The notes beneath the pieces were generated by a model that was not told where the DNA came from, searched no databases, and was given only the letters and a program-made list of their open reading frames with translations. Below, in pieces: positions 1 to 3,717 of a stretch of DNA of 64,000 nt. The position numbers were made by a program, and so were the translations under genes. Every line of letters starts with the position of its first letter. Positions within the stretch are counted from its first letter, which is position 1. The stretch is from Acidobacteriota bacterium (lineage in GTDB: Bacteria; Acidobacteriota; Vicinamibacteria; Vicinamibacterales; CAVVIG01), in contig JACPZW010000005.1 of NCBI GenBank assembly GCA_016195265.1, positions 1 to 64,000 of the forward strand, given 5' to 3'.

Positions 1-139
1 CCTCCCACGCGCCCAGAAAGCCGGACGGCGATTGTCGACGTTCGCTTGGGGAATGGCTCGACATCCCCAGCGTAAGTACCGATTTCCGGAGAAATGTACA
101 AGAGGAATCTCACGTCAGCGAATTTCCGAAAGGCATTGG
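1..139. other. Unassigned left edge, possibly the end of a preceding integron cassette
   Basis: No gene can be assigned. On the plus strand one frame is open from base 2 to a TAA at 143-145, inside the first core box of the attC site; cassette genes often stop there. Its roughly 47 residues are very basic and not recognised. A second plus frame is open from base 3 through the attC site to 238. I cannot say which, if either, is coding. Confidence 0.3.
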
Positions 140-208
140 GTCTAACACGGCATGCAGCCGACGGCGCTATCGATATCGAGGCGCCGCGGCTGATGCCTCA
201 CGTTGGGC
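140..208 (+). other. Integron attC recombination site
   Basis: The site starts with GTCTAAC (140-146, fits RYYYAAC) and ends with GTTGGGC (202-208, fits GTTRRRY). Between them, 149-167 and 181-197 pair as 17 base pairs. The left arm carries exactly two unpaired extra bases, G154 and A161, and the loop is 168-180. Imperfect pairing with extrahelical bases on one strand is the hallmark by which integron integrases recognise folded single-stranded attC. The left half also resembles the well-known aadA-type attC (GTCTAACA, then an AGCCGACG-like box). No integrase gene is visible, so this is a lone attC or the end of an array continuing to the left. Confidence 0.93.
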
Positions 209-235
209 GGACAAGCTTGGCAAGGATCGCAAACC

Positions 236-796
236 GTGAAGACCTTTGTCGCTCAGACCGCTGATCAGTGGCGCAAATGGCTCGACGAGCACCACGACTC
301 CGAGTCTGAGGTGTGGCTCATCTTCCACAAGCTACACACTGGCGTGGCTTCGATTGCGTACCTGGACGCACTCGATGAGGCGCTGTGCTTTGGCTGGGTG
401 GACAGTCTGGTCAAACGTCTGGATGACTCACGCTATGCGCGCAAGTTCACGCCGAGGAAGGCGGATAGCCGATGGTCAGCAATTAACCGGAAGCGCTACG
501 CGGCCTTGAAAGCCAGTGGTAGGTTGACGCCCGGTGGGATAAACCGCGCACCGACGGACCGCAGCTATGGCCCGCGACCGCCACGGTTCCAAATGCCCGC
601 AACGGTTCCATGGCACATCCAGGCAGCGTTAAGGAAACATCCGGCGGCATGGCGGTACTTCGAGGGGCTTGCGCCCTCACATCGGCGACGGTATGTCGGC
701 TGGATAGAATCCGCCAAGCACGAGGAGACGAAGGCCAGACGCCTGAAGGAGGCGATTCGCCTCCTCATTGCTGGCAAGCCGCTGGGACTCAGGTAG
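236..796 (+). CDS. YdeI/OmpD-associated family protein, cassette-borne
   Basis: The protein has 186 residues from the GTG at 236, which has AAGGAT about nine bases upstream; a TTG at 203 lies inside the attC core and is less likely. The N-terminal half shows the family pattern: a region around EVWLIFHK, an aromatic-rich segment at FGWVDSLVKRLDD, and TPRKADSRWSAINRKR. The tail (ARRLKEAIRLLIAGKPLGL) matches the usual family end, so it looks full length. The family is annotated for bacteriocin protection or as OmpD-associated, but its biochemical function is not settled. It is the only gene between the attC at 140-208 and the second GTTGGGC box at 808, which is the position expected of a mobile gene cassette. 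Confidence 0.85.
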   Translation: MKTFVAQTADQWRKWLDEHHDSESEVWLIFHKLHTGVASIAYLDALDEALCFGWVDSLVKRLDDSRYARKFTPRKADSRWSAINRKRYAALKASGRLTPGGINRAPTDRSYGPRPPRFQMPATVPWHIQAALRKHPAAWRYFEGLAPSHRRRYVGWIESAKHEETKARRLKEAIRLLIAGKPLGLR

Positions 797-806
797 GCAG
801 CGGCGA

Positions 807-819
807 CGTTGGGCGGACA
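807..819 (+). other. Second copy of the attC right-end box (13-base direct repeat)
   Basis: CGTTGGGCGGACA occurs here and at 201-213, 606 bases apart, bracketing the YdeI-like gene. It contains a GTTRRRY box 12 bases after the gene's stop. No matching RYYYAAC box or stem was found in the preceding 150 bases, so this is at most a truncated attC end. Confidence 0.5.
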
Positions 820-873
820 CGTACCTGGCAACGAGCCTCAATTCCGCATTACATGCCAGCGTGACGCCCCCGC

Positions 874-3717
874 TTACGGCTTTGCTGGCGGTGCGGGCAC
901 CAGCGTCACAATCGTCGACCGAGTCTCCGGGAAGTACTTCTTGAAGACGTCCTGCAGCGCCTGCGGCGTCACCGCGTCGATGCGCTGGCCGCGCGTGACG
1001 ATCTCGGACGGGTCGCCGCCGAGCATCGTGATCGACTGCAGGCGCCGCAGCCAGTAGTCGTTCTGCTTGAGCGATGTCTCGTACGTGCGCCGTGCGGATT
1101 CCTTGGCGCGGTTCGTCAGATCCTCCGACGGCGCCGTCTCCTGCAGCTTCTTGATCTCCTGCAGCACGCGCGTCGTCATCGAGTCGATGTTCTCAGGCGC
1201 CGCGCCGAAACGCACCTGGATGTGGCCGCCGCCCCGCTGCGGGAGCTGCTGCGACAGGTTGACGCCGACCGTGTACGTCTGGCCGAGATCCTCGCGCAGC
1301 ACGTCACGCAACACGATGTCCAGCACCGTCGTCGCGGCGTTGATGTTCTCCTGCTCGACGGGATCCGGCGGGGGATCGGCGTAGAAGCTCATCACGGTCT
1401 GTGCCTTCGGATCCTGGCCCTGCTCGACCTTCACGCGCTGCGTCCCCTCGGGGAACCGCACGCCGATGTCGGTGAACTTCGAGATCGCCTCGCCCTTCGA
1501 CGACAGCGTGCCGAGGTAGCGGGCGAGGAGGGGAACCGCCTCATCGACCTTGAAGGCGCCGACCATGAAGAACTTGAAGTCGGCTGCGTTCGAAAAGCGA
1601 TCCCTGTAGAACGCGAGCATCTTCGCACGATCGAGTCCGGCAATGCGCTCGGGTGTCAGCGGTTGCGATGTGCAGTGGTTCGACGTGTTGATTTGCGCGA
1701 GTTTTTCGGCGAAGACCTGGCCCGGCGATCGGCCACGGTTGGCGACCATCGCCTCGAGCTGCTTCTTCATCAGCGCGAAGGCTTCCGGGTCGTCGCCCGG
1801 CGCGGTCAGCTCCTGATAAAGGAGCTGCAGCGCGGTCTCAAGCTGCGCGGGTGCGGCGCTTCCTGACACGCCGTGCGTCGAGGAGGAGATGAACGGCCGG
1901 GCGGAAACGAGCTTGCCCGTGAGCACCTTCTGCAGGTCGGTGGCTTTGAGTCCGCCCGCGCCGGAGAAGTCCGTGTAGGCCGGCGCCAGCGTCGCATTGG
2001 CCTCATCGGCGCAGGACGCGAGCGAGGCGCCGCCGAGGGCGTTCATGCCGAAGAGCACCTGATCGTTCTTGAAGTCGGTCGGCTTCAGCCAGGCCTCCAC
2101 GCCGTTGGCGAACGTGACGATCGTGATGCCGAGACTGTCGATCGCCCGGCGTGACGCGATGCCGGCGGGCGCCGGTAGGTGCTCGAGCAGCGCGCGCGTG
2201 ACGGTGGTATCCGCCCACGGCGTCACCCGGACGGCCGCGGCGGCGCTGATCGCGGCCTGCAAATCGGCCTCCGTCGGGATCTTGATGCCGGGCTTCTGCG
2301 GCGAGACGGCGAGGATGACGCGGCTGTCGTCGCCGAGGAGCGACTTGGCCATCGCCGAGACTTCGGCCTCGGAGATGCTCGGAATGAGCTGCTGGACGAG
2401 GCGGTACTCGTACTCGATGCCCGGGCTCGGCTCGTCGATCAGGAAGTAGCTGAGATACTCCTGCGCGAACGATCCGCTCTCGGTCTTGGTGCGCTCCTGG
2501 TAGGCGCGATCGTAGAACGCGGCCATCCACTTCTTCGCGCGATCGAGCTCCGATCCGCTGAAGCCGAACTCGCGGACGCGCTGCGCCTCGGTCGTGAGGA
2601 CGCCGATGCCGTCCTCGAGCTTGCCGTCCTGCACGCCAGCGCTCATCGTGAACGTCGAGACGTCGCGGCTCAGGCTGCTGTTGCCGACGCCCGCGCCGAG
2701 GAACTTTGCATCCGGCTTGCGCCCGAGCTCGCCGAACCGCTCGTCCATCATGTGGTCGATGAGCCGCGTGACGAGATCGCGCCGGTAGTCTGAAACCAGC
2801 TGCTCGCCCTCGCGCTTGCGCTCGCGGACGAGCGAGACGCTCGATCGCGTCAGTTCCGGATCGGACACGACGCTGATCAGCGCGTCCTTGTGCAGCGGGA
2901 CCGTGTGATCGGGCAGGGGCGCCATCGGAGCCCGCGCCGTTAGCGGCGAAAACGTCGACGCAATCTGACCGGCGAGGCCGGCCGCGTCGACGTCGCCCAC
3001 GGCAATCACCGCCATGCGGTCAGGCCGGTACCAGGTGTCGTAGAACGCGCGCAGCCGCGCGACGGGCGCCGTGCGAATCACCTCGGGTTTTCCGATCGGC
3101 AGCCGCTGCGCGTAGCGCGACTGATAGAAGAGGACGGGCAGCTGCTTGTCCCGGACGCGCGCGCCGGCGCCGAGGCCGAGCCGCCACTCTTCAATGACGA
3201 CCCCGCGCTCCTTGTCCACTTCTTCCTGGAACAGCGACAGACCCCCGGCGAAGTCGGCGAGCGCCGTCAGGCCCTTCGCGACGACGTCCGGCTTGTCCGA
3301 GGGCAGGTCGAGCATGTACACGGTTTCGTCGAAGCTCGTGTACGCGTTGACGTGCGGGCCGAGGCGGGCGCCGACCGACTCGAAGTACGCGACCAGTTCG
3401 CTCGGTTTGAAATGCGCGCTGCCGTTGAACGCCATGTGCTCGACGAGATGCGCGAGACCCTGCTGGTCGTCCGCTTCATACAGCGAGCCGGCCTTCACGG
3501 CGAGGCGAATCGAGATGCGATTGGCCGGCCGATCGTTCTTGCGCACGAAGTACTTCAGGCCGTTCGGCAGCGCGGCCGTGCGGACGGCGGTGTCGAAGGG
3601 AATCGTGTCCCGCGGATTGAAGGTTGCCGGCGCTGGGGCTTGCGCGACGACCAGCGTCGTGGCCGTCGTGACCAGCAGGAGAAGGGAAGCGAGGAAGCGA
3701 AGCCGTCGCGTGTTCAT
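874..3717 (-). CDS. M16 family zinc metallopeptidase (pitrilysin-like, two-domain)
   Basis: The 947-residue protein is probably secreted to the periplasm: residues 1-26 form a signal peptide ending in VVAQ. The inverted zinc motif HLVEH is at 90-94, and Glu170 lies 76 residues after the second His, the spacing expected for the third zinc ligand. Residues about 45-480 are the active M16 half and about 500-940 the inactive M16 half, which together form the clamshell chamber. The family degrades short peptides and transit-like fragments. GAGAGG lies about 10 bases before the ATG. It is divergent from the thiolase at 3795 and shares a 77-base intergenic region with it. Confidence 0.93.
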   Translation of the reverse strand: MNTRRLRFLASLLLLVTTATTLVVAQAPAPATFNPRDTIPFDTAVRTAALPNGLKYFVRKNDRPANRISIRLAVKAGSLYEADDQQGLAHLVEHMAFNGSAHFKPSELVAYFESVGARLGPHVNAYTSFDETVYMLDLPSDKPDVVAKGLTALADFAGGLSLFQEEVDKERGVVIEEWRLGLGAGARVRDKQLPVLFYQSRYAQRLPIGKPEVIRTAPVARLRAFYDTWYRPDRMAVIAVGDVDAAGLAGQIASTFSPLTARAPMAPLPDHTVPLHKDALISVVSDPELTRSSVSLVRERKREGEQLVSDYRRDLVTRLIDHMMDERFGELGRKPDAKFLGAGVGNSSLSRDVSTFTMSAGVQDGKLEDGIGVLTTEAQRVREFGFSGSELDRAKKWMAAFYDRAYQERTKTESGSFAQEYLSYFLIDEPSPGIEYEYRLVQQLIPSISEAEVSAMAKSLLGDDSRVILAVSPQKPGIKIPTEADLQAAISAAAAVRVTPWADTTVTRALLEHLPAPAGIASRRAIDSLGITIVTFANGVEAWLKPTDFKNDQVLFGMNALGGASLASCADEANATLAPAYTDFSGAGGLKATDLQKVLTGKLVSARPFISSSTHGVSGSAAPAQLETALQLLYQELTAPGDDPEAFALMKKQLEAMVANRGRSPGQVFAEKLAQINTSNHCTSQPLTPERIAGLDRAKMLAFYRDRFSNAADFKFFMVGAFKVDEAVPLLARYLGTLSSKGEAISKFTDIGVRFPEGTQRVKVEQGQDPKAQTVMSFYADPPPDPVEQENINAATTVLDIVLRDVLREDLGQTYTVGVNLSQQLPQRGGGHIQVRFGAAPENIDSMTTRVLQEIKKLQETAPSEDLTNRAKESARRTYETSLKQNDYWLRRLQSITMLGGDPSEIVTRGQRIDAVTPQALQDVFKKYFPETRSTIVTLVPAPPAKP

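Follow-up and report, generated by a model that had tools for sequence, protein, structure and literature searches.

Organization of the locus

The DNA analysed here, referred to as the window, is a stretch of 64,000 nucleotides at the start of a contig from a soil acidobacterium of subdivision 6 (Acidobacteria gp6, that is, the Vicinamibacteria). It opens with the end of an insertion sequence (IS), followed by an attC recombination site, an OmdA/YdeI gene cassette that keeps a relic of its own attC, a short segment and a gene encoding an M16 peptidase (Table 1). The contig ends at window position 1 because this multicopy IS lies immediately to the left of the attC. Another contig of the same assembly, C81, carries an intact integron integrase gene, intI, together with a series of cassettes.

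Table 1. Coordinates of the features in the window and of the integrase gene on contig C81.
Feature	Position	Strand	Basis or remark
IS4-type insertion sequence end, multicopy	1-138	.	Recurrence at contig ends, terminal inverted repeat, transposase of the C48 copy
Terminal inverted repeat (TIR) GAATTTCCGAAAGGCATTG	120-138		End of the window's IS
10-bp target-site duplication GGTCTAACAC	139-148	.	Holds the whole attC R'' box
attC recombination site	140-208	+	Fold, leave-one-out covariance model, compensatory changes over 28 sites
OmdA/YdeI gene cassette	203-807	+	Runs from the upstream attC's R' crossover point as far as the R' box of the relic
Cassette gene, OmdA/YdeI family (PF13376)	236-796	+	Pfam, 69.3 bits
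attC relic of the OmdA cassette	773-814	+	Reduced to R' box GTTGGGC (808-814) plus adjoining bases
Short distal segment of the insertion	815-864	.	Without homology to the tyrA/M16 junction of relatives
M16 peptidase gene, chromosomal flank distal to the integron	874-3717	-	Pfam M16 domains
Intact integron integrase gene intI	C81:100602-101660		TIGR02249, 455 bits

The attC site and its family in the genome

The core boxes of the site, R'' GTCTAAC (140-146) and R' GTTGGGC (202-208), fit the R'' RYYYAAC and R' GTTRRRY patterns. Folded as single-stranded DNA, the sequence forms a hairpin with a 17-bp stem (5+6+6) that starts at position 149 and leaves two bases unpaired, G154 and A161, both on the top strand. 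The fold energy is -22.9 kcal/mol (z = -3.24), and none of 200 shuffled sequences folded as well. The first-pass annotation had described a well-formed attC with these boxes, limits and stem, and exactly two extrahelical bases on one strand, and our analysis agrees with it on all of these points. It had also proposed a covariance model as a check, which we carried out in an equivalent form with a leave-one-out model of our own, trained on 17 further attCs from this genome; the site at 140-208 was excluded from this second model because a model trained on a site finds that site by construction. The site passed with a score of 77.1 bits (E = 1.1e-17), while the runner-up in the 64-kb window reached only 12 bits. 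No further attC rose above background in the window with the covariance model, which leaves the relic as the one other trace, and an Rfam scan of window positions 1-3000 gave no useful match. The site is also a cassette boundary: in a genome of the same genus (L232), DNA homology to the OmdA cassette starts exactly at window position 203, the crossover point. Window 140-208 is a genuine attC. In its looks it is of the active, functional type, and it is predicted to recombine.

The first covariance model detected 26 attC sites at E < 0.001 in the 4.5-Mb genome, and in the sequence stretches examined the family has 28 members after two reverse-strand duplicates were dropped. In the alignment of 30 rows, 93.5% of the cells at paired positions are paired, against 74.5% in shuffles, and the covariation score is 0.420, against 0.121 in shuffled alignments, a value that none of 500 shuffles reached. 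Changes on both sides of a pair account for 125 cells, and no shuffle or shifted register approached the alignment in paired share or covariation score. Compensatory base changes across the attC family of this genome are strong. Both unpaired bases are nearly invariant: of the 30 aligned rows, 28 have a top-strand G at the first (window 154) and 24 have an A at the second (window 161); at the first of these positions, well-studied attCs have C, not G.

Many members of the family lie elsewhere. Lone or near-lone attCs were observed far from any integrase on contigs C31, C26, C61, C16, C4, C37 and C69 (loci L031, L035, L036, L038, L039, L041 and L045), and these scattered sites are possibly off-target cassette insertions. 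Arrays of attCs without an integrase are present on C34 (L021, C34:14783-20325), at the right end of C49 (L022) and at the left end of C81 (L015); IS duplications that match (CTCCTAACCC) connect the last two of these ends. One cassette start was found after two different attCs, on C15 (L049:1-133) and C34 (L025, after position 1571), and therefore represents one cassette in two places.

The integrase and its cassette array

The score of the C81 integrase is well above the TIGR02249 cut-off (265 bits), and among solved structures its closest match is Vibrio cholerae IntI4 (2a3v, E 1.8e-87). Its motifs GAGLR, HTLRHSFATH and IYTH were all found. The gene tyrA lies directly before intI, and on the 3' side of intI the order is a trypsin-like gene, an attC, an Mrr-like gene, an attC, a ParE-type toxin gene with its upstream partner, an attC, a DinB gene and an IS, whose insertion point seems to be the R'' box of the attC that follows. 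A GTTAGAC box (L014:9855-9861) precedes the first cassette gene after intI and may mark the attI, a kind of site with no strong consensus. The array thus lies 3' of intI, and its attCs share the orientation of intI, which is the layout called inverted. The description of the window's attC as lacking an integrase therefore holds for its contig and fails for the genome. A second integron integrase gene, on contig C8 (L010:862-1776, minus strand), looks broken: the segment around the first catalytic arginine is missing and the C-terminus is odd. Two attCs lie on its 3' side.

The OmdA cassette

The cassette gene exceeds the PF13376 cut-off (25.6 bits) and likely starts with the GTG at position 236. 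Its homologues, with 83-88% amino acid identity, occur in the same genus, in another genus and in another family, and in these other genomes they adjoin attCs. In a genome of another family (L231) the OmdA gene follows an attC at the same short distance as in the window, and an intact attC lies just behind the gene in L232, L233 and L235. In the window, GTTGGGCGGACA is present twice (202-213 and 808-819). A second intact attC at the copy at 808 was considered and rejected: the relic scores 11.5 bits, the best match within 600-1000, and by comparison with relatives most of the stem is lost. The OmdA segment is a real cassette, but with nothing more than the R' box left of its attC it can probably no longer leave by itself and is locked in. 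The OmdA cassette at L231:2035-2300 also has no full attC behind it, an R''-like box alone being kept. No plasmid relatives of the attC-OmdA stretch were found.

A probable single integron between tyrA and the M16 gene

In two same-genus genomes, tyrA stands next to the M16 peptidase gene in convergent orientation, and the M16 orthologue that adjoins tyrA in a same-genus genome shares 89% amino acid identity with the window's gene. The tyrA/M16 neighbourhood was found in L182, L187 and L184. In the same-genus locus L196, the homology to C81 stops at the tyrA stop codon and the homology to the window, which begins at window position 865, starts 5 bases further on. Since the homologous stretches are only 5 bases apart in L196, the right end of C81 and the left end of the window are best taken as the flanks of one integron. 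An assembly gap separates the two, and the link between C81 and the attC is a synteny argument, and a strong one. We conclude that the attC at 140-208 very probably lies close to the distal end of a chromosomal integron with an inverted integrase, inserted between tyrA and the M16 gene.

The main alternative is that the site is a CALIN, with its attC and single cassette outside any integron; an IS-mediated rearrangement would have brought it beside the M16 gene, and it would have no connection with the C81 integrase. Like a CALIN, the contig of this attC has no integrase; unlike a CALIN, the site is placed by synteny in an integron whose integrase is on C81. The attC groups on C34 and C49 and the lone attCs described above, all far from intI, speak for such an origin, as do the many IS copies in the genome that could recombine. 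However, the junction that is empty in the same-genus relatives is occupied on one side by the C81 integron and on the other by the window, and a single insertion at tyrA/M16 is the simpler account, so we consider a CALIN unlikely.

With an integron at the tyrA/M16 junction, the order of the locus would be tyrA, intI, attI, the trypsin-like, Mrr-like, ParE toxin plus partner and DinB cassettes, an IS, an unassembled part, an IS, the attC at 140-208, the OmdA cassette and the M16 gene; the order within the gap, and the reading of the array as one unit, are inferred. By analogy with known integrons, a hairpin would form from the bottom strand of 140-208, and the C81 integrase may then bind the R and L boxes of the folded attC, using the two unpaired bases. 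Strand exchange by the integrase would take place between G202 and T203, and this exchange could excise the cassette to the left or admit other cassettes at that point.

Insertion sequences in attC core boxes

The IS end is repeated at the ends of contigs C56, C62, C81 (both ends), C74 and C51, and the DNA beyond each copy differs from one contig end to the next. The first 17 bases of the TIR occur 17 times in the genome. A complete variant copy on C48 encodes a DDE_Tnp_1 (PF01609) transposase, in which a Y-(2)-R-(3)-E-(6)-K pattern was read by eye (YAQRWEHELYFRELK). The 10-bp target duplications, whose length was set by matching the flanks of left and right IS ends (LE and RE), are identical in four LE/RE pairs of contig ends (C62/C8, C56/C48, C49/C81 and C51/C57), with TA at the centre and mostly YTAR. 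A YREK-type DDE transposase, TIRs and 10-bp target duplications characterize the IS4 family, to which we assign the element on these features.

The insertion point of the IS is inside the R'' box of the attC, and an inactivated, dead attC might have been the outcome. Owing to the target duplication, however, the sequence from R'' to R' is complete on the window side, with the boxes, the stem and the unpaired bases all retained; the hairpin is still whole because the 10-bp duplication restores the R'' box that the IS had hit, and inactivation therefore appears improbable. The hairpin is G+C-rich and directly adjoins the IS end, yet the probability that it is an unrelated or chance inverted repeat (a terminator of transcription or a part of the IS, for example) is negligible, since it is one of 28 covarying sites in which the boxes and two unpaired bases are fixed and between many of which cassette-sized genes lie, since the IS stops at 138 and the hairpin is absent after the other IS copies, and since the leave-one-out score already contradicts such a reading.

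The first-pass annotation had suggested that the array may continue to the left of the window, and the synteny with C81 bears this out, with the qualification that the DNA immediately to the left (1-138) is the end of an IS and not cassette DNA. Because both sides end in LE with differing duplications, the gap between C81 and the window holds at least two copies of the IS. A single copy joining the two was rejected: the same IS end is present on both sides and the duplications differ by one base. In the assembly we did not find partner contig ends with duplications that match GGTCTAACAC or GGTCTAACAT; elsewhere GGTCTAACAC is present only inside C19 and GGTCTAACAT only in an attC on C49. An IS-borne rearrangement could have changed the middle of the integron between C81 and the window.

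The same type of IS was observed in the R'' boxes of two attCs, at C81:104983-104992 (right end, L014; duplication GGTCTAACAT) and at window 139-148 (GGTCTAACAC), the two duplications being those that differ by one base. R'' boxes were hit by two of some 12 IS insertions in the genome, for which a rough chance estimate based on base counts from a sample of genome stretches is 0.002. This recurrence is the only unusual point of the locus, and its support is weak. A YTAR-targeting IS4-type element might use attC core boxes as preferred landing sites, and it could enter arrays without destroying attCs because the 10-bp duplication re-creates the R'' box, though we regard such a preference as very unlikely. 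The related genomes gave no support for a general preference of the IS for attCs: among the copies inspected in six of them, none was found at an attC. Relaxed selection on the arrays could also account for the hits in R'' boxes. If the preference were true, an attC-preferring IS may cut arrays into blocks.

Relation to known integrons and significance

The suggestion that integrons are poorly known in bacteria of this kind did not stand. An attC covariance model for Acidobacteria has already been published (PMC8352920), the phylum is counted among those that carry integrons (PMC8618304), and attCs were detected in 41 of the 60 related genomes searched, with an integrase above the TIGR02249 cut-off in 21 of the 60. 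The inverted layout was also seen in L065, L069, L070, L092, L127, L129 and L178 and is usual among the acidobacterial relatives in this set; the classical layout was seen in the proteobacterial loci L071, L073, L074 and L075. An inverted integron integrase clade of soil and freshwater is mentioned in PMC8352920, and reverse-orientation IntIs of spirochaetes are treated in PMC9668308. The C81 integrase resembles inverted integron integrases in having its array 3' of intI, a likeness by layout alone, with no evident difference.

The integron is also like the sedentary chromosomal integrons of Acidobacteria (PMC8352920) in its attC boxes and hairpin, a comparison made with the genome's own covariance model, as well as in its TIGR02249 integrase and in its short cassettes, one of them a toxin-antitoxin cassette. 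Unlike those, it is split by IS in the assembly and its distal cassette has lost its attC.

What appeared to be an orphan attC thus becomes the end of an identified integron, and the locus illustrates how assemblies broken by IS create false "integrase-less" cassettes. The integron is an ordinary, well-supported case of a known type and leaves the general picture of integrons unchanged. It is a well-documented addition, an inverted-type acidobacterial integron with an intact integrase and a precisely mapped insertion point (tyrA/M16), whose OmdA cassette is shared with genomes from within the genus, from a second genus and from a different family.
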